Virus record (IMG/VR): IMGVR_UViG_3300021961_000316
Span: 1-34,378 of that record
DNA: 34,378 nucleotides
Reading direction: 5' to 3' (one strand)
From: a virus
Shown here: positions 980-9,702 of the stretch, one piece after another
Numbering within the stretch: the first letter of the stretch is position 1
Layout: each line of letters starts with the position of its first letter
Position numbers and translations under genes: made by a program
Notes under the pieces: generated by a model
What the model was told of the DNA's origin: nothing
Database searches by the model: none
Seen by the model: the letters and a program-made list of their open reading frames with translations, nothing else

Positions 980-1168
980 ATGATGACCTTGGAGCAGATA
1001 CGAAATGCCCTATCTGACCGCATGCCGGTCAAGGTGGCAGAGGCCACCGGGCTGCACTACAACACCATCCGAGAGGTGCGAGACAACCCTGAGGCCAACC
1101 CGACCTACAAGGTAATGCTGGCTCTGTCCACCTACTTGGAAGGCCGGAGCAATGACCAGCAAAGCTGA
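980..1168 (+). CDS. Small Cro/XRE-like helix-turn-helix regulator
   Basis: A 62-residue protein (61 if the second ATG at 983 is used). It contains a helix-turn-helix of the XRE type: VAEATGLHYNTIREVRDNP, followed by a conserved tail in which a tyrosine precedes a LALSTYLEG-like helix. This is the minimal form seen in small phage regulators of the Cro type. It is the first gene rightward of the control region and probably binds the overlapping promoters at 912-945, so autoregulation and control of the leftward operon are likely. The ribosome-binding site is AGGGAA, about 6 nt upstream. Its 3' end overlaps the next gene by 17 nt. No dimerisation or inducer domain is present. Confidence 0.8.
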   Translation: MMTLEQIRNALSDRMPVKVAEATGLHYNTIREVRDNPEANPTYKVMLALSTYLEGRSNDQQS

Positions 1169-3041
1169 AGCAGCCCTGACCTACGCCTCTTGGGGCTGGC
1201 ATGTCATCCCGGTGGTCCCCAATGGCAAAGTTCCTGCCACCCAGCATGGGGTCAAGGATGCCACCACAGACCCCGAGCAGATCGCCAGATGGTGGGCACA
1301 GAACCCAGACTTCAACATCGGCATCGCAGCCGGTGAGCGATCTGGCATAGTCGTCTTTGACATCGACCCTCGCAACGGTGGCGATGCGTCATGGGCCGCA
1401 TGGCTCGATGCCAATGGGCGGCTTCCAGACGGTGCCATGCAGATGACCGCAGGCGGCGGTGAGCATCACCTCGGCGTCTACAACCCAGAGATCAGGTCTT
1501 GTAAGCTCGCTGAAGGCGTGGACCTGCTGGCCGATGGGCGCTACTTCGTGGCCTTTCCCTCAAGCATTGAAGGGCGCAGCTATCAATGGGAAGCCTCATC
1601 CGATCCATTTGACGGCGTGGCACCATTCACGATCCCCAGCCAATGGCTTGAGTCCTACAGGGCGATGCGCAAGCCTGCGGAGCGCCAGGCCAGCACCACT
1701 GGCGGCGGTCTGATTCAAGGCAGTCGAAACAACGGCCTGACAGCCCTGGGCGGTGCGATGCGGCGCTACGGCATGACAGAGGCCGAGATCATGGCCGCGC
1801 TGGCCATTGCCAATGAGACCCGCTGCGAGATTCCTCTGCCATCCTCTGAGTTGGTCCAGATCGTCAAGAGCGTGGCCAGGTACGAGCCGGAGAGCGATGT
1901 AGCGGCCTCAACAAGCATCGGCTCAGAATCTGCCGAGTTCATCTTGTCAGCAGCCCAGGCAGAGACGCAAGAATATTTTTTCACCCGCGCCACCTCCTAT
2001 CTTGGCCAACCCGCTCCCTTGCGCTGGATCATTAAGGGCTGGATTCCCGATAGTGGCGTGAGCATGGTTTATGGTGAGTCAGGCTCTGGCAAAACCTTCA
2101 TCACCCTGGACATGGCCTGCAATATCGCGGCAGGCTTGCAGTGGCATGGCCACAAGACCAAAGCAGGCTTGGTGGTCTACATGGCCGGGGAAGGGAACTA
2201 CGGCCTGCGCCAGCGGGTGACAGCCTGGTGCAAGGCCCACGATGTCCAAGAATTGGACAACCTCCTGATCTCGAACAAGGCAATCGACATCGACAGCCCA
2301 GCCGCGGCAGCCCAGATCATCAACGCGGTGCGCGAAATCACCCAGGACGATGCGGTGGCAATCTTTATAGACACTGTGAATAATCACATGTCTGGGGATG
2401 AGAACAGCGCCAAGGACACCCGCAACATGCTCAATGCCTGCAACATCGTGGCCAGGGCGCTTGGCTCCAGCGTGTGCCTCAATCACCACACCGGGCATGC
2501 AGCCGAATCCAAGCAGCGGGCGCGTGGCTCCAGCGCCTGGAAGGCATCGCTTGATGCCTCCATTCTTGTCTCCAAGAACGACAACAGCATCGAGATTACC
2601 TGCACCAAGATGAAGGACGCAGAGCCTCCGAATCCGTTCTTCGGCAAGCTGGAGACAGTGCCGCTGGGATGGATTGATGAGGATGGCGAGGAAATAAAAG
2701 GCGCAGTATTTGTGATTGAAGAAAATGCACCGGAGAAAAAGGAAAAAAAGGATTCTGAAATTCAAAAAGATATTCGCAAATTCACAAACGCTTGGTGGGC
2801 TGCTGGGGCTGAAGACCGAGACAAAATGCCTTATCTATCGCGCAGTGCATTACTTGAATATCTCACGATAAATGAAGGACTGACAGAATCTACTGCAAAA
2901 ACTTATGCCCAGGAAAGTAAAAAAGGCAGGTTAATTTATAACCTGCTAAACGCTCAAATTATTCGTGCTCATCAACATGGCTGGGTGGTCTGTGACAGCG
3001 CTACAGCGGCAACCTTGATGGTCCGAAGGACTGAAAAGTAG
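1152..3041 (+). CDS. Replication protein: primase-polymerase (Prim-Pol) plus RepA-like helicase
   Basis: A 629-residue protein. Residues 1 to about 190 match the bifunctional Prim-Pol domain: GWHVIPVVPNGKVPA at the start, the metal-binding pair in VVFDIDPRNGG (residues 72-82) and a following GGGEHH segment. A central RecA/RepA-like ATPase (AAA_25) has Walker A GESGSGKT at 308-315, a Walker B-type strand ending in FIDTVNNH and a conserved LNHHTGH segment. It should synthesise primers and unwind the origin. From about 2690 to the stop the DNA becomes much more AT-rich (22 of 60 bases are G or C in 2701-2760), so the C-terminal part, probably the DNA- or partner-binding domain, may have been exchanged. 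Repeats just downstream look like its target. Confidence 0.9.
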   Translation: MTSKAEAALTYASWGWHVIPVVPNGKVPATQHGVKDATTDPEQIARWWAQNPDFNIGIAAGERSGIVVFDIDPRNGGDASWAAWLDANGRLPDGAMQMTAGGGEHHLGVYNPEIRSCKLAEGVDLLADGRYFVAFPSSIEGRSYQWEASSDPFDGVAPFTIPSQWLESYRAMRKPAERQASTTGGGLIQGSRNNGLTALGGAMRRYGMTEAEIMAALAIANETRCEIPLPSSELVQIVKSVARYEPESDVAASTSIGSESAEFILSAAQAETQEYFFTRATSYLGQPAPLRWIIKGWIPDSGVSMVYGESGSGKTFITLDMACNIAAGLQWHGHKTKAGLVVYMAGEGNYGLRQRVTAWCKAHDVQELDNLLISNKAIDIDSPAAAAQIINAVREITQDDAVAIFIDTVNNHMSGDENSAKDTRNMLNACNIVARALGSSVCLNHHTGHAAESKQRARGSSAWKASLDASILVSKNDNSIEITCTKMKDAEPPNPFFGKLETVPLGWIDEDGEEIKGAVFVIEENAPEKKEKKDSEIQKDIRKFTNAWWAAGAEDRDKMPYLSRSALLEYLTINEGLTESTAKTYAQESKKGRLIYNLLNAQIIRAHQHGWVVCDSATAATLMVRRTEK

Positions 3042-3160
3042 AGTGGGACAATTGGGACAGGACTGGGACAATTGGGACTTTTGTCCCGAGGACAAGGCGA
3101 GGCAGCCTGGGACAGGACAGGACACACACCTTTAGGGTGTGTCCCATTGTCCCAGCCACG
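3042..3160. repeat. Iteron-like repeat cluster, candidate replication origin
   Basis: The gap after the replication gene is packed with copies of TGGGACA. Forward copies lie at 3044, 3053, 3064, a variant at 3073, and 3108. Inverted copies are at 3140-3146 and 3148-3154, with a partial one at 3082. A 15-base unit TGGGACAATTGGGAC occurs perfectly at 3044-3058 and 3064-3078, exactly 20 bp apart (two helical turns). A hairpin ACACACC-TTTAG-GGTGTGT sits at 3123-3141. This arrangement beside a Prim-Pol/helicase resembles an iteron origin. A role in mRNA folding or termination is the alternative. Confidence 0.6.
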
Positions 3161-3192
3161 ATGTGCATTTTTTGACCTGAAAGGAACAACCT

Positions 3193-3576: not shown

Positions 3577-3755
3577 CACCCATTCACGACTCCCCCAACT
3601 TCGCAAGCTGGCAACAAGAAACCCTCGCCAAGTTCGCAGCCGAGGTCTACGAACGACTGGTGGCCGAGCAGGCCGCAAACGAGCAGCTTCGCCTCGACCT
3701 TAAAGATGCCATGAAACTAGCGCGGCAACAAAATCTGAAAGACAATGCAGCATGA
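3573..3755 (+). CDS. Small conserved hypothetical protein, coiled-coil
   Basis: A 60-residue, mostly helical protein beginning MTPIHDSPNFASWQQETL. Residues 20-55 are rich in Leu, Glu and Ala with heptad-like spacing and could form a coiled coil. Both ends overlap their neighbours by the four bases ATGA, so it is translationally coupled to the HNH-like gene before it and the methyltransferase after it. Proteins with the opening MTPIHDSPNF occur widely in phages near replication genes, with no known function. There are no cysteines, membrane segments or catalytic motifs. Confidence 0.7.
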   Translation: MTPIHDSPNFASWQQETLAKFAAEVYERLVAEQAANEQLRLDLKDAMKLARQQNLKDNAA

Positions 3756-5014
3756 CCACAAAAACCCACAATCCCGCAGATAAAGTCGAACGCTGGAGCA
3801 TCGACAAGCTCACGCCCTACGCACGCAACAGCCGCACCCACTCCGACGAACAAATCAGCCAGCTGGCAGCCAGCATCAAGGAATGGGGCTGGACAACACC
3901 CGTTCTGGTGGATGAGGACGGCAGCATCATTGCCGGCCACGGTCGTACCCTCGCAGCTCAACGCCTCAAGATGACCGAAGTCCCTGTCATGGTGGCCAAA
4001 GGCTGGAGCGATGCCAAGAAACGCGCCTACGTCATAGCCGACAACAAACTGGCGCTGAACGCCGGCTGGGACAACGATCTGCTGGCGCTCGAGCTGGGTG
4101 AGCTAGGTGATCTTGGGTTCGATCTGAATCTGGTGGGGTTTACCGATGAGGAGATCGCGGCGCTAATGCCAGTGCAAGGCACCGATGGCCTCACCGATCC
4201 TGACGATGCTCCGGCCGTGCAAGAAAACCCGGTCACAGTGCCTGGTGACGTCTGGGTGATGGGAAAGCACCGCCTTCTGTGTGGTGATTCGACCAGCGTC
4301 GACGACCTGACAAAACTCACTGGCGGCCAACTGGTGGATATGTGGCTGACAGACCCACCATACAACGTGGCTTACGAGGGCGGCACAAAGGAAAAGCTGA
4401 CCATCAAAAACGACGAGATGGGCGACGATCAGTTTCGACAGTTCTTGCGCGATGCTTACACCGCTGCCGACATGGTGATGAAACCTGGCTCGGTGTTCTA
4501 CATCTGGCACGCCGACAGCGAGGGCTACAACTTCCGAGGCGCGGCCAAGGACGCTGGATGGACGGTGCGGCAGTGCTTGATCTGGAAGAAGTCCTCGATG
4601 GTCATGGGACGCCAGGACTACCACTGGAAGCACGAGCCGTGCCTGTACGGCTGGAAAGACGGTGCTGGACACCTCTGGGCGGCTGACCGCAAGCAGACCA
4701 CCATCCTGGAGTTCGACAAGCCCAGCCGCAACGGCGAGCATCCGACCATGAAGCCGGTGGCGCTGTTCGAGTACCAGATGCTCAACAACACAAAGGGCGG
4801 CGACCTGGTGCTCGACTCCTTCGGCGGCTCCGGAACCACCCTGATCGCAGCCGAGAAGAACGGCCGCACGGCAATGCTGATGGAGCTGAACCCGCGCTAC
4901 TGCGACGTCATCGTCAAGCGCTGGCAGGAGTTCACAGGCAAAATCGCAGTTCACGCAGAAACTGGACAACCTTTCGCGGAGGTTAAAGATGGCAGCACGA
5001 AAACCCACAATTGA
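3752..5014 (+). CDS. DNA methyltransferase with N-terminal ParB/Srx-like domain
   Basis: A 420-residue fusion. Residues about 14-110 form a ParB/sulfiredoxin-like domain with the signature IIAGHGRTLAAQRL. Residues about 170-405 are an N6/N4-type DNA methyltransferase with DPPYNV at 201-206 (catalytic) and DSFGGSGTT at 355-363 (AdoMet binding). Catalytic motif before the AdoMet motif is the beta-class order. It would methylate adenine (N6) or cytosine (N4) in phage DNA, protecting it from host restriction or marking it for replication or packaging. No partner restriction enzyme is present. The ParB-like part probably helps bind DNA or may hydrolyse nucleotide. It overlaps the small terminase gene by 26 nt, a placement common in phages. 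Confidence 0.9.
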   Translation: MTTKTHNPADKVERWSIDKLTPYARNSRTHSDEQISQLAASIKEWGWTTPVLVDEDGSIIAGHGRTLAAQRLKMTEVPVMVAKGWSDAKKRAYVIADNKLALNAGWDNDLLALELGELGDLGFDLNLVGFTDEEIAALMPVQGTDGLTDPDDAPAVQENPVTVPGDVWVMGKHRLLCGDSTSVDDLTKLTGGQLVDMWLTDPPYNVAYEGGTKEKLTIKNDEMGDDQFRQFLRDAYTAADMVMKPGSVFYIWHADSEGYNFRGAAKDAGWTVRQCLIWKKSSMVMGRQDYHWKHEPCLYGWKDGAGHLWAADRKQTTILEFDKPSRNGEHPTMKPVALFEYQMLNNTKGGDLVLDSFGGSGTTLIAAEKNGRTAMLMELNPRYCDVIVKRWQEFTGKIAVHAETGQPFAEVKDGSTKTHN

Positions 5015-5447
5015 AAAATCGGTTCTAAAAAAGCCGGATGGCCGGAAAAACAACGGCGGCGCACGGGAAAACGCTGGTCGGATGGCCTTTGAGCCGACCG
5101 ACGCAGAGCGCAAACAGGTCGAGGCAATGTCAGGCTACGGCCTGCCAATCGAGCAGATCGCCATCCTGGTGCGCGGCGGCATCGACACCGACACGCTGCG
5201 CAAGCACTTTGCCACCGAGCTGGTGGCCGGCAAGGCCAAGGCGAACTCTGGCGTCGGTCGCACTCTGTTCCAGAAGGCAATGGGCGGCGACACGGCGGCC
5301 ATGATCTGGTGGTCCAAGACCCAGATGAAGTGGAAGGAAACCCAGGCGCACGAGCTGACCGGCGCAGACGGCGCGCCCCTGGAGTTTGCAAAGATCGAAC
5401 GAGTGGTCATCCGTGGCAAAGCAGACGCTGAAAATTCAGACGCCTGA
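4989..5447 (+). CDS. Terminase small subunit (putative)
   Basis: A 152-residue protein directly before the large terminase. It starts at ATG 4989 with GGAGG upstream. A basic N-terminus with GGARENAGR precedes a helix-turn-helix-like segment around residues 45-75 (YGLPIEQIAILV, then DTDTLRKHFATEL), followed by a helical region that could oligomerise. This matches small terminase subunits that recognise the pac or cos site as a ring. It overlaps the methyltransferase by 26 nt and the large subunit by 35-62 nt depending on that start. The assignment rests on the HTH pattern and the position. Confidence 0.8.
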   Translation: MAARKPTIEKSVLKKPDGRKNNGGARENAGRMAFEPTDAERKQVEAMSGYGLPIEQIAILVRGGIDTDTLRKHFATELVAGKAKANSGVGRTLFQKAMGGDTAAMIWWSKTQMKWKETQAHELTGADGAPLEFAKIERVVIRGKADAENSDA

Positions 5448-6642
5448 GTGGGCGCTCCCGCTGCTTAACCCAGCACGCTACAAAGGTGCATGGGGTGGCC
5501 GAGGCAGCGGCAAGTCCCACATGTTTGCCGAGCTGATGATCGAGGCCCACATCATGGATCAGAAGCGGCGCAGCGTCTGCGTGCGCGAGGTCCAGAAGTC
5601 GCTGGCTCAGTCGGTCAAGCGCCTGCTCGAGACCAAGATCGAGCAGATGAACGCTGGCGCTTACTTCGAGGTCCAGGAGGCCGTCATCAAGTCCAAGAAG
5701 GGCGATGGCATGATCATCTTCCAGGGCATGCAGAACCACACAGCCGACTCGATCAAGTCGCTGGAGGGCTATGACTGCGCCTGGGTGGAGGAGGCTCAGA
5801 GCCTGAGCCAGACCAGCCTGGACCTGCTGCGGCCAACAATCCGCAAGCCCCAGTCCGAGCTGTGGTTCACCTGGAACCCGCGCCAGCAGACAGATCCGGT
5901 CGATCACCTGCTGCGTGGCCCAACGCCACCCAAAGACGCCACCGTCCTGAAGGTCAACTTCACCGACAACCCGTGGTTTCCAGACGTCCTGCGCGACGAG
6001 ATGGAGTACGACAAGCGGCGCGATCCTGACAAGTACAGCCATGTCTGGATGGGCCAGTACCTGACCAACAGCAGCGCCAGGGTCTTCAAGAACTGGCGCA
6101 TCGACGAGTTCGAGGCACCTCGAGACGCCATCCACAGGCTCGGCGCTGACTGGGGCTTTGCCATCGATCCGACCGTCTTGGTTCGCTGCCACATCATTGG
6201 CCGCACCCTGTACATCGACCACGAAGCCTACATGGTGGGCTGCGAGATCGTGAACACGCCTGAGCTGTTCATGACAGTGCCGGAGTCCGAGAAGTGGCCC
6301 ATCGTGGCCGACTCGGCCAGGCCGGAGACCATCAGCCACATGAAAAAGAACGGCTTTCCCAAGATCATGACGGCGGTCAAAGGCCCGAAGTCGGTCGAGG
6401 AAGGCATCGAATTCTTGAAGAACTACGACATCGTGGTTCACCCACGATGCATCCACACGATTGACGAGCTGACCCTTTACAGTTATAAGCAAGACCCACT
6501 GACAGGTAAGATTCTGCCGATCCTGGAGGACAAGAAAAACCACGTCATCGACGCCTTGCGATACGCCTGCGAGGCGGTGCGGCGGTCCAGTGCGGCCAAG
6601 CCTGCCGTCTTCACGCCTTTGCCAAACGTAAAGAAGTGGTGA
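5413..6642 (+). CDS. terL: Terminase large subunit (PBSX-type, Terminase_3)
   Basis: The ATPase/nuclease motor that packages DNA into the prohead, about 409 residues from GTG 5413 (a TTG at 5386 would add nine). Walker A GGRGSGKS lies near residues 28-35, and a Walker B-type segment CAWVEEAQSL about 100 residues later. The C-terminal RNase H-like nuclease has its acidic residues in LGADWGFAIDPT, IVADSARPETI and KNHVIDALRYAC. The architecture fits the PBSX/Terminase_3 family. It starts inside the small-subunit gene, as expected for a coupled pair. With a P22-like portal and coat, headful cutting from a pac site is the likely packaging mode, but family alone does not prove it. Confidence 0.95.
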   Translation: MAKQTLKIQTPEWALPLLNPARYKGAWGGRGSGKSHMFAELMIEAHIMDQKRRSVCVREVQKSLAQSVKRLLETKIEQMNAGAYFEVQEAVIKSKKGDGMIIFQGMQNHTADSIKSLEGYDCAWVEEAQSLSQTSLDLLRPTIRKPQSELWFTWNPRQQTDPVDHLLRGPTPPKDATVLKVNFTDNPWFPDVLRDEMEYDKRRDPDKYSHVWMGQYLTNSSARVFKNWRIDEFEAPRDAIHRLGADWGFAIDPTVLVRCHIIGRTLYIDHEAYMVGCEIVNTPELFMTVPESEKWPIVADSARPETISHMKKNGFPKIMTAVKGPKSVEEGIEFLKNYDIVVHPRCIHTIDELTLYSYKQDPLTGKILPILEDKKNHVIDALRYACEAVRRSSAAKPAVFTPLPNVKKW

Positions 6643-6670
6643 GACAATCGCACAAATTGAGGAACTAATT

Positions 6671-8731
6671 ATGGCCAGAATCTCTAACGACCAGCGCCTT
6701 GCCAATCTTCACACAGAAGCCTTGGCGCAGTTCGACGACGTTCAGAGCGCACTGCGCGACGAGCGCCTGCAGTGCCTGCAGGATCGGCGCTTCTACAGCC
6801 TGGCAGGCAGCCAGTGGGAAGGCCCACTCTGGGACCAGTACGAGAACAAGCCGAAGTTCGAGGTCAACAAGATCATGCTGGCCGTGATCCGAGTGGTCAA
6901 CGAGTACCGCAACAACAGGATCACGGTGGACTTTGTGTCCAAGGATGGCACCGAGAACGACAAGCTGGCCGAGGTCTGCGACGGACTGTACAGAGCCGAC
7001 GAGCAGGCATCCGTGGCCGACGAGGCCTACGACAACGCCTTCGAGGAGGCGGTCGGCGGCGGCATTGGCGCTTGGCGTCTGCGCACCGTTTACGAGGACG
7101 AGGAAGACCCAGAGGACGACAGGCAGCGCATTCGCATCGAGCCGATCTTCGACGCTGACAGCTCGGTGTTCTTCGACCTAGGTGCCAAGCGCCAGGACAA
7201 GTCCGATGCTAAGTTCTGCTTCGTGGTCACCAGCATGACCCGCCAGGCCTACAAGGACACCTGGGGCGACGACCCGACCGACTGGCCCAAGATCATCCAC
7301 CAGTACGAGTTCGACTGGTGCACGCCAGATGTGGTCTACGTGGCCGAGTACTTCAAGGTCGAGGAAAAGACAGAGACCATTCGCATCTTCCAGGCTATTG
7401 ACGGCACCGAGGAGCGTTACAGCCAAACCGACTTCGCAGCCGACGAGACCCTTGAGGACACGCTGGCCGCCATTGGCACCCGCGAGGTGCGGCAGAAGAA
7501 GGTCAAGCGCAAGCGCGTGCGCAAGTACGTCATGTCCGGTGGCCGAGTGCTTGAGGACGCTGGCTACATCGCAGGCAACTGCATTCCCATCGTTGTGGTG
7601 TACGGCAAGCGCTGGTTCGTTGACAACGTCGAGCGCTGCATGGGCCATGTGCGCCTGGCCAAGGATGCCCAGCGCTTGAAGAACATGCAGCTCTCCAAGC
7701 TGGGCGAGATCAGCGCACTGTCCAGTGTCGAGAAGCCGATCCTCACGCCTGAGCAGGTGGCTGGCCATCAGGTCATGTGGTCTGAGGACAACCTCAAGGA
7801 CTACCCATACCTGCTGATCAACCCGATCACAGGGCCAAACGGCGAGCAGCAAATCAGCGGCCCAATTGCCTACACGAAAAGCCCACAAATCCCACCGGCA
7901 ATGGCTGCGCTCCTGCAGATCACCGAAACCGACATGCAGGACATCTTGGGCAATCAGCAAGGCGCTGACAAGATGGTGAGCAATATCTCCGGCAAGGCCG
8001 TCGAGATGATCCAGGCTCGAGTCGATGGCCAGGCCTTTATTTACATGAGCAACTTTGCCAAGGGCATGAAACGCTGCGGCGAGATTTGGCTCTCGATGGC
8101 AAGGGACATCTACACCGAAGAAAAGCGCAAGATGAAGACGGTGGCGGCCACTGGTGAGGCTGGCATGGTCGAGCTGATGCAGCCGAGCATTGACCAAGAG
8201 ACCGGCGAGGTGGTCATGCAAAACGACCTGTCCAGCGCCACCTTTGATGTGATCGCAGACGTCGGCCCGTCCAGCTCGAGCAAGCGCCAGGCGACCGTCA
8301 GGGCACTGACCGGAATGCTCTCGATCACGCAAGACCCAGAGACCGCACAGGTGCTGACGGCGATGGCCATGATGAACATGGAGGGCGAGGGCGTCGGCGA
8401 TGCCAATGCCTACTTCCGCAAGAAGCTGCTGCGCATGGGCGTGGTCGAGCCGACCGAGGATGAGGCCAAAGACCTCATGGCAGAGATGCAGGGCAAGCCC
8501 CAAGACCCGAATGCCATGTACCTCCAAGCCGCTGCCGAGGAGGCCACCGCCAAGGCTGCGCAGGCCCGTGCCAACACGGTCAAGACCGTGGCCGACGCAG
8601 AACTCAGCCGAGCCAAGACGCTCGAGACGCTCGGCAAGGTTGACGAGACAGCACAGAACATGGCGCTCACAAATGCAGAGGCTGTGCAGGAGATTCTGCG
8701 TGGCCAGATCATTCAGCCTGTTGTCAGGTAA
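6671..8731 (+). CDS. P22-like portal protein
   Basis: A 686-residue portal that would form the dodecameric ring at one capsid vertex, through which DNA enters and leaves. Size (P22 gp1 is 725 residues) and sequence character fit the P22 portal family: an N-terminal segment with QWEGPLW and FEVNKIMLAV, a stem and wing region, and a long Ala/Glu/Lys-rich helical C-terminus (residues about 600-686) resembling the barrel helices of P22 portal. It follows terL by 28 bp with GAGGAA upstream. The order terS-terL-portal-scaffold-coat supports the call. The long open frame on the opposite strand here is an artefact of codon bias. Confidence 0.92.
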   Translation: MARISNDQRLANLHTEALAQFDDVQSALRDERLQCLQDRRFYSLAGSQWEGPLWDQYENKPKFEVNKIMLAVIRVVNEYRNNRITVDFVSKDGTENDKLAEVCDGLYRADEQASVADEAYDNAFEEAVGGGIGAWRLRTVYEDEEDPEDDRQRIRIEPIFDADSSVFFDLGAKRQDKSDAKFCFVVTSMTRQAYKDTWGDDPTDWPKIIHQYEFDWCTPDVVYVAEYFKVEEKTETIRIFQAIDGTEERYSQTDFAADETLEDTLAAIGTREVRQKKVKRKRVRKYVMSGGRVLEDAGYIAGNCIPIVVVYGKRWFVDNVERCMGHVRLAKDAQRLKNMQLSKLGEISALSSVEKPILTPEQVAGHQVMWSEDNLKDYPYLLINPITGPNGEQQISGPIAYTKSPQIPPAMAALLQITETDMQDILGNQQGADKMVSNISGKAVEMIQARVDGQAFIYMSNFAKGMKRCGEIWLSMARDIYTEEKRKMKTVAATGEAGMVELMQPSIDQETGEVVMQNDLSSATFDVIADVGPSSSSKRQATVRALTGMLSITQDPETAQVLTAMAMMNMEGEGVGDANAYFRKKLLRMGVVEPTEDEAKDLMAEMQGKPQDPNAMYLQAAAEEATAKAAQARANTVKTVADAELSRAKTLETLGKVDETAQNMALTNAEAVQEILRGQIIQPVVR

Positions 8732-8809: not shown

Positions 8810-9702
8810 GTAAAAAGGCAGTATCAGGAGATGAAAGCCAAGACGACGAGACCGTAGTTATTGAGGACGAAGACCAAAGACCTGAGCAAGAAACCAGCGA
8901 GTATCAATCCACTGGTGACCAGGACGAAGGCCAGAATGCCGAAGATGGCGAGGGCGAGTCGGACGAGGTGATCGTCTCCATTGGTGAGGAAGCGCCACCT
9001 CCCGAAGAACAGACTCATGCGCCTGAATGGGTGCGCGAGCTGCGTAAGACGAACCGAGAATTGCAACGTCAGAATCGAGAGCTACACAGCAAGCTGCAGA
9101 CAACCGCACAGACTGAGACCAAGCCGGCCGTGCTGGGACCAAAGCCGAAGCTGGAAGATCACGACTACGACGCTGACAAATTCGAGGATGCACTGGCCAA
9201 TTGGTTTGAGCGCAAGCAAAAAGCCGACGAGATGCAAGCCGCGCAGGAAGCTGAAGTTATGAATCAGCAAAAGGCGTGGAAGGCAAAGCTGGATGGCTAC
9301 GGCAGGGCGAAAGCTGAGCTGCGAGTCAAGGATTTTGAGGATGCCGAGGCCGTGGCCCAGGAACTCTTCAACATCACCCAGCAGGGCGTGGTGCTTCAAG
9401 GTGCAGATAACCCTGCGCTCGTCATTTACGCACTCGGCAAGAATCCGAAGAAGGCCAAGGAGCTGTCCGATATCAAAGACCCCGTGAAGTTTGCCTTTGC
9501 GGTAGCGAAACTGGAGAAAGAATTGAAAGTTACCAACCGTAAGGCAGCCCCGCCACCCGAGAGAGTCGTGTCAGGAACTGGCCGAGTATCTGGGGCGGTG
9601 GACTCAACCCTTGAACGGCTGCGAGAAGAAGCTGCGAAAACTGGGAACTACACAAAAGTCACTCAGTACAGAGCGCAAAAACGAGCAGCATCAAAAAACT
9701 GA
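8806..9702 (+). CDS. Scaffolding-like protein
   Basis: A 298-residue protein in the scaffold position between portal and coat. Residues 1-70 are extremely acidic (Glu/Asp/Gln-rich). A coiled-coil segment follows (VRELRKTNRELQRQNRELHS, residues about 77-96), then a charged helical body. The C-terminus is basic (QYRAQKRAASKN), as in P22 gp8, whose basic C-terminal helix-turn-helix docks onto coat protein. It should direct coat assembly into a prohead and leave before or during packaging. Sequence similarity to P22 gp8 cannot be judged by eye, so the call rests on position, composition and the C-terminal charge. Confidence 0.78.
   Translation: MSKKAVSGDESQDDETVVIEDEDQRPEQETSEYQSTGDQDEGQNAEDGEGESDEVIVSIGEEAPPPEEQTHAPEWVRELRKTNRELQRQNRELHSKLQTTAQTETKPAVLGPKPKLEDHDYDADKFEDALANWFERKQKADEMQAAQEAEVMNQQKAWKAKLDGYGRAKAELRVKDFEDAEAVAQELFNITQQGVVLQGADNPALVIYALGKNPKKAKELSDIKDPVKFAFAVAKLEKELKVTNRKAAPPPERVVSGTGRVSGAVDSTLERLREEAAKTGNYTKVTQYRAQKRAASKN

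Follow-up and report, generated by a model that had tools for sequence, protein, structure and literature searches.

How does a phage of this group begin to copy its DNA, and which of its proteins would recognize the starting point? The question is raised by a cluster of short repeated words in the virus record IMGVR_UViG_3300021961_000316, the 34,378 bases of which constitute the window analysed here. The initial annotation had regarded the cluster as a candidate origin with iteron-type sites for the initiator encoded next to it. Besides the initiator, the window encodes a terminase and a P22-like portal, and at 3752-5014 a protein in which a ParB_N domain is fused with an N6/N4 DNA methylase domain. 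A terminal repeat of 10-200 bases, which would point to a circular sequence, was not found in the record.

The repeat array behind the initiator gene

The array spans positions 3044-3154 and has units on both strands; its first unit lies two bases past the stop codon of the Prim-Pol/AAA_25 helicase gene, which bears out the initial placement immediately downstream of the replication initiator. A position directly 3' of the initiator gene is also a feature of the pri-rep-ori arrangement of SaPI/PICI elements. The features of the locus are the following:

980-1168, plus strand: small Cro-like regulator, just upstream of the initiator gene (phrog_18104, 1.2e-9)
1152-3041, plus strand: initiator gene, encoding Prim-Pol, PriCT_1, an AAA_25 (RecA-like) helicase (Pfam 1.9e-33, 7.6e-12 and 4.3e-37, respectively) and a C-terminal domain
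2718-3038, plus strand: C-terminal domain, residues 523-629, proposed reader of the repeats (modelled winged helix; its identity tracks the word)
3044-3078, plus strand: left set of four direct units (cores at 3045, 3054, 3065 and 3074), 9 and 11 bp apart (sequence)
3083-3087, minus strand: inverted unit GTCCC, which closes the left set (an inverted copy recurs here in most relatives)
3090-3102, plus strand: scaffold element GGACAAGGCGAGG (AAGGCG at 3094-3099), constant while the word changes (comparison with relatives)
3108-3124, plus strand: right set of direct units, TGGGACA-GGACA-GGACA, 5-6 bp apart (sequence)
3120-3144, no strand assigned: hairpin GGACACACACC-TTTA-GGGTGTGTCC with conserved CTTTAG apex (sequence, relatives)
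3140-3154, minus strand: right inverted units, two copies of TGGGACA (sequence)
3159-3163, plus strand: CGATG, which recurs just past the array in many relatives

The count of at least seven TGGGACA-type units within 111 bp, given initially, holds for the core GGGAC, which occurs eight times between 3045 and 3153 (plus strand at 3045, 3054, 3065, 3074 and 3109; minus strand at 3083, 3141 and 3149), and is too high for the exact heptamer, of which there are six copies (plus strand at 3044, 3053, 3064 and 3108; minus strand at 3140-3146 and 3148-3154). The perfect 15-base repeat at 20-bp spacing is exact, TGGGACAATTGGGAC being present at 3044-3058 and 3064-3078; upon extension it becomes an 18-mer repeat at 94%. 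The hairpin seen earlier is likewise present, with the arms GGACACAC and GTGTGTCC at 3120-3144. The proposed spacing at whole helical turns fits the left half, since its units are 9 and 11 bp apart, and fails in the right half (5-6 bp). As in iteron origins, the direct short units are repeated beyond chance: the count of the top 6-mer was matched by at most one of 200 dinucleotide shuffles, and the array is the densest 6-mer cluster of the window, with 7 copies per 150 bp, followed by clusters of 6 and 5.

Folding of the strand 3042-3170 was compared with shuffled sequences and gave z values of -3.4 as DNA and -3.9 as RNA. With regard to an AT-rich region for unwinding, a T-run at about 3168-3173, past the array, and the TTTA apex of the hairpin were seen; between the two unit sets there is no AT-rich stretch, 14 of the 20 bases at 3088-3107 being G or C. 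The skew check suggested by the initial annotation did not reveal a switch at the array: the cumulative GC skew of the window has its extremes at 9,645 and 16,221, with no extremum near 3.1 kb, and neither supports nor refutes the origin reading.

The initiator and its C-terminal domain

The approximately 100 residues that follow the AAA_25 domain have no Pfam match above the curated cut-off. AlphaFold2, run with 74 sequences, yielded a model of this C-terminal domain with a mean pLDDT of 88.5 and the element order helix, strand, helix, helix, helix, strand, strand, helix, which in the model is a winged-helix arrangement. Fold matches are many, but they are weak and concern generic winged helices (best Foldseek E 0.095; best Z 7.2, a retron effector), and a sequence search of the PDB with the domain returned none at E ≤ 1. 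Matches to RepA_N were obtained for 7 of the 74 members, all weak (best E 0.018), and the domain of the window is not among them. The combination of a Prim-Pol domain with a C-terminal winged helix, as in pRN1-type proteins, is found here, the winged helix by model only.

In the window protein P0001 and in L060, L131 and L134 the helicase is preceded by Prim-Pol/PriCT_1, and in L078 and L223 a TOPRIM primase precedes the same AAA_25 domain, so that the primase end is exchangeable as well. What follows the helicase in L223-L225, L227, L226 and L378 seems unrelated to the usual C-terminal domain; L223-L225 and L227 have words of their own (ACCCCC, CTAACA), and perhaps a different reader domain.

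Arrays in related phages

Relatives were collected from IMG/VR together with six named phage regions, the identity being mostly 40-97%. A search of genome contigs with P0001 gave 81 pattern matches and no relative among them. The first set comprised 73 loci, 13 of which were left out as the gene end was not reached. At least five GGGAC/GTCCC units past the gene end were present in 54 of the remaining 60; of the other six, five carry a different word and one retains just 47 bp of sequence. The wider nonredundant set contained 106 loci, or 103 after removal of three with too short a downstream stretch, and in 87 of these 103 a 6-mer is significantly repeated in the 200 bp after the stop codon (at most one of 200 dinucleotide shuffles reaches its count). 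The units hence adjoin the initiator gene in these 87 relatives too, as would be expected of an iteron origin. The top 6-mer was counted 7.2 times on average after the gene, as opposed to 2.6 times in shuffles and 2.5 times in coding stretches; the coding controls never reached five copies, and stretches 500 bp further on did so in 5 of 92 cases.

The word itself varies widely. The 87 arrays have 31 different top 6-mers, some of which represent one word in another register, and merging of words by any shared frequent 6-mer leaves eight word classes among 88 loci. Among the words are GGGACA, CGTAAC, CGTCAC, GGTACA, GGGGCA and others, with one word common to all copies of an array. In named phages the word is GCGTGACA (Rhizobium phage 16-3), GGTTCA (Alteromonas PB15), GGTACA (Idiomarinaceae 1N2-2) and GGGGACA (Salicola CGphi29). 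Avoidance of stray GGGAC sites was considered and rejected. Outside the array the window has 26 copies of GGGAC, compared with 56.6 expected from dinucleotides; the scarcity is equal in loci with the word CGTAAC (ratio 0.45) and GGGACA (0.48), and is therefore a matter of composition, not of avoidance.

Relatives that keep the gene and lack the repeats, named initially as evidence that would speak against an origin, do exist as a few exceptions, most relatives having an array. In ct76p945 a related gene is kept and no comparable cluster occurs in the whole 40 kb record (at best 5 copies per 150 bp); L313 and L317 have the gene and no clear array within the available stretch. The contig of L133 ends too early, and the best cluster in L237 is located about 2 kb further on. 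For L158 and L212 the best unit window starts before the stop codon, and the array thus seems to reach into the gene end. In L083, L084, L101, L114, L121 and L128 a gene has seemingly been inserted between the initiator gene and the array, which lies 680-780 bp past the stop codon; the word in these six loci is still CGTAAC, as in their clade. Recombination within an array is indicated by L004 and L007, which have the same left half and a different right half and downstream DNA, with the same word.

In the CGTAAC clade (L082-L148), CGTAAC/GTTACG clusters once more, with three or more copies at +600 to +1,900 from the array start. This second cluster is situated in the 3' part of an apparent downstream gene in 35 of 44 loci; of the nine loci without it, eight have less than 600 bp there and L060 has none. 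Such a cluster recalls the P4 pair of ori plus crr, or a control site. Neither the window nor the exchanged groups L131/L134 have a second cluster of their own word. Further repeats were encountered in two other settings: L202 carries at 5381-7741 long downstream runs of the CCCAGG/CCAGGC type, unrelated to its ACGATA array, and L016, L035, L039, L047 and L053 have ATAGGG-/CTATAG-type motifs a short distance ahead of downstream start codons, which could be a promoter or operator common to these loci.

A constant scaffold under a changing word

Across the different words the usual order of elements is the same. Direct units come first, followed by an inverted unit and a GGCAAGGCG-like element; then come further direct units, a hairpin whose tip is often CTTTAG, and inverted units. 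With a gap-tolerant search for the hairpin apex, which settles on a different hairpin in some loci, among them L053, L060, L065 and L083, and with thirteen named loci omitted from the hairpin, scaffold and spacing counts (including L158 and L202, in which arrays are visible), at least two direct copies were found left of the apex in 88 of 88 loci and at least one inverted copy right of it in 84 of 88; a stricter hairpin pattern misses 32 of the 88 loci, the window included. A GGCAA/AAGGCG-type motif precedes the apex by 33-52 nt (median 40) in 56 of the 86 loci used for this gap-tolerant count, compared with 5.7 expected from shuffles. In the 69 loci used for spacing, 116 of 203 intervals between left units measure 9-12 bp, and 53 of 95 between right units measure 4-6 bp. 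The direct copies outside the hairpin change their word along with the copies inside.

The word follows the C-terminal domain

If the C-terminal domain reads the array, its sequence should change with the word. For this comparison 137 Prim-Pol-type loci of 187 unique loci were paired (9,316 pairs), all TOPRIM-type loci and eleven named loci with no reliable automatic word being omitted. Two loci were taken to have the same word if they share any 6-mer present at least four times, a rule lenient to one-base changes, so that L060/L061 do not count as a different-word pair. At a C-terminal identity of at least 0.7 there are 1,895 same-word pairs and not a single different-word pair. Same and different words are separated with an AUC of 0.96 by C-terminal identity and of 0.80 by helicase identity. 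Where the helicases are at least 0.95 identical, the C-terminal identity amounts to 95.5% in same-word pairs (n = 250) versus 50.9% in different-word pairs (n = 9). At a helicase identity of at least 0.85 it falls below 0.65 in 15 of 15 different-word pairs, which are not independent and represent two locus groups and about three exchanges, and in 8 of 1,322 same-word pairs. All eight involve L161, a counter-case in which the C-terminal domain has diverged and the common word is kept.

The boundaries of the exchanged DNA can be followed in individual pairs. L132 and L135 have helicases that are 99.6% identical, C-terminal domains that are 51% identical, and the words CGTCAC and CGTAGC. Between L131 and L134 the DNA identity of about 90% falls approximately 300 bp before the stop codon, stays at 45-75% through domain and array, and is 82-90% from +353 onwards; between L274 and L281 it falls at about -300 from the stop codon, is low through the array and recovers at about +650-670. 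As the dip spans both domain and array, the two have been exchanged in a single piece. A more gradual change is displayed by L060 and L061 from the same metagenome, the words of which are one base apart (CGTAAC and CGTACC). Here 11 of 540 residues differ before the C-terminal domain and 27 of 96 within it, and silent changes are common in both parts (149 before the domain, 32 within). Including this pair, the exchange comparisons comprise about four independent events, not hundreds.

Within the arrays that have a GGGAC core, residue 587 is Gln in combination with T (46 loci) or C (9 loci) before GGGAC, and Lys in combination with G (8 loci). Exceptions are L161 and L307, where Lys goes with C, L221, where Gln goes with G, and L077, L213 and L229, which have other residues. 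On the helicase tree of 64 loci there are three independent contrasts, which usually all agree and none of which opposes (sign-test p 0.25); in a smaller set of 63 loci about 2.9 contrasts agree, none opposes and 1.1 are without difference. Residue 587 is a lead only, as the first candidate letter of a recognition code.

Origin, operator, RNA element or partition site

It may be asked whether the array is indeed an origin and the C-terminal domain its reader. An origin could also be read by another factor, such as host DnaA or a further phage protein, with the co-change of domain and word arising from adjacency only; the exchanged DNA is after all one continuous stretch over the C-terminal domain and the array. 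This is nevertheless quite unlikely in view of the complete absence of different words among the 1,895 pairs at C-terminal identity of at least 0.7, the retention of the clade word in arrays displaced by the inserted gene, and the unchanged word after recombination within the array (L004 versus L007). A single conserved host factor, in particular, is improbable because there are many different words. In the window the gene directly upstream of the initiator gene codes for a small HTH protein, and a search turned up such a protein in the exchanged loci examined as well, so the repeats might be operators of this Cro-like regulator or an autoregulatory site instead of an origin. The Cro-like protein, however, is identical in 53 of 53 residues across the CGTCAC/CGTAGC exchange (L131/L132 versus L134/L135) and 96% identical in L060/L061 despite the changed word, and therefore cannot account for the new words; the array, moreover, sits after the large gene of the operon. 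Operators are for these reasons a very unlikely explanation.

Highly improbable, too, is an action of the element as RNA, be it a terminator or a structured regulatory RNA that ends the initiator message. It would agree with the better-than-shuffled folding of the strand as RNA and with the conservation of the hairpin apex across words, yet the direct copies left of the hairpin change their word with the arms, which base pairing alone would not require; Rfam gave no family at threshold (best E 0.38), and in the window no T-run directly follows the hairpin. That the protein encoded 600 bp away, at 3752-5014, contains a ParB_N domain (6.7e-7) brings to mind a parS-like partition site, but the word varies with the C-terminal domain of the initiator, and we regard a partition site as extremely unlikely.

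Proposed mechanism and implications

The best explanation remains that of the initial annotation, an array of iteron-type initiator binding sites that serves as a replication origin. We propose that its units are recognized by the initiator's C-terminal domain, with helicase loading, opening and priming to follow, and assign this reading a probability of roughly 0.8. It draws on comparative evidence from sequences: the array stays behind the gene even in distant relatives, and it is the C-terminal domain, rather than the helicase or the adjacent Cro-like protein, that varies in step with the word. Binding of the units by the C-terminal winged helix is the most likely mechanism, SaPI Rep and SCCmec Cch2 serving as the analogy. 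We infer that this domain would bind the word in both orientations, with one unit per turn on the left and closely packed on the right, and that the ring helicase of the same polypeptide would thereby be loaded. The strands would open around scaffold and hairpin, and the Prim-Pol domain would lay the primers from which synthesis starts.

The concerted replacement of C-terminal domain and array is best read as the exchange of one cassette, and it could in part be mere linkage because the two are neighbours. Going further, one may tentatively picture, at somewhat less than even odds, an "address and reader" cassette in which the winged helix and its iteron word are renewed jointly, through both exchange and gradual co-change, on a constant scaffold, such that near-identical phages become mutually blind at the origin. 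Incompatibility of co-infecting relatives or origin-directed nucleases could drive this turnover. If this were true, the replication specificity of widespread uncultured phages would be set by an exchangeable cassette of about 100 residues and 110 bp, there would be a testable explanation for the possible coexistence of close relatives in one cell, and the many pairs of word and domain would amount to a natural code of recognition. They would furthermore supply abundant naturally matched combinations of DNA word and winged-helix reader from which specificity could be decoded, and a group of origins that are potentially orthogonal to one another. Ordinary phages would then join in a domain/origin exchange so far shown for PLE, a nuclease-attacked satellite.

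Comparison with known replication systems

The closest parallels are found in SaPI/PICI elements. As set out in PMC7581432, their pri-rep-ori has a short-iteron origin directly 3' of the initiator gene, recognized by the C-terminal domain of the helicase, as proposed for the window; in SaPI Rep and SCCmec Cch2 alike, it is the C-terminal domain that binds repeats located just behind the protein's own gene. PMC6092414 shows iteron sequences for each element and an origin organisation in common. In SaPI/PICI two iteron sets flank an AT-rich region, whereas in the window the two sets flank the G+C-rich GGCAAGGCG, followed by the CTTTAG hairpin. SaPI/PICI are satellites, in contrast to the phages of the window group with their own portal and terminase, and the window differs further in having Prim-Pol and AAA_25 helicase in one chain.

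In PLE, according to PMC8263062, the DNA-binding domain of the initiator and the origin covary and are swapped together, the rest being conserved, with cognate recognition established by experiment and a phage nuclease aimed at the origin as proposed selective force. PLE employs an N-terminal RepA_N domain and three repeats of about 30 bp in two groups, as opposed to the C-terminal domain and many short words of the window. The archaeal plasmid pRN1 (ORF56/ORF904) resembles the window in its small repressor, its Prim-Pol/helicase/winged-helix protein and a downstream hairpin element, a stem-loop described in PMC4234260 as needed for replication, movable and variable in sequence. It has an SF3 helicase, one 100-nt stem-loop and no iterons, unlike the window with its AAA_25 helicase.

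P4 alpha contains a TOPRIM primase, in contrast to the Prim-Pol/PriCT_1 and AAA_25 domains of P0001. The P4 helicase belongs to SF3, and the P4 iteron is GGTGAACA. According to PMC4234260, P4 alpha unites primase, helicase and C-terminal winged helix in one protein, as modelled for the window, and the P4 protein binds the origin repeats (ori, crr). This source likewise depicts the oriV of RSF1010 with iterons and hairpins near a hexameric helicase and a hairpin-directed primase, similar to the window; in RSF1010 (RepC iterons, ssi hairpins, RepA, RepB') the functions are distributed over three separate proteins, in the window they are joined in one chain. Extrachromosomal mycobacterial prophages were rejected as a parallel because no iterons were found in the passages of PMC7157519 covered. 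The open-licence PMC literature yielded nothing on arrays of this kind in these phages. SaPI/PICI, PLE and P4 already exemplify the principle of an iteron origin carried along with its reader; within that open-licence literature, neither a word turnover of this scale on a single scaffold nor near-identical helicases bearing exchanged cassettes were found described, and both look new.
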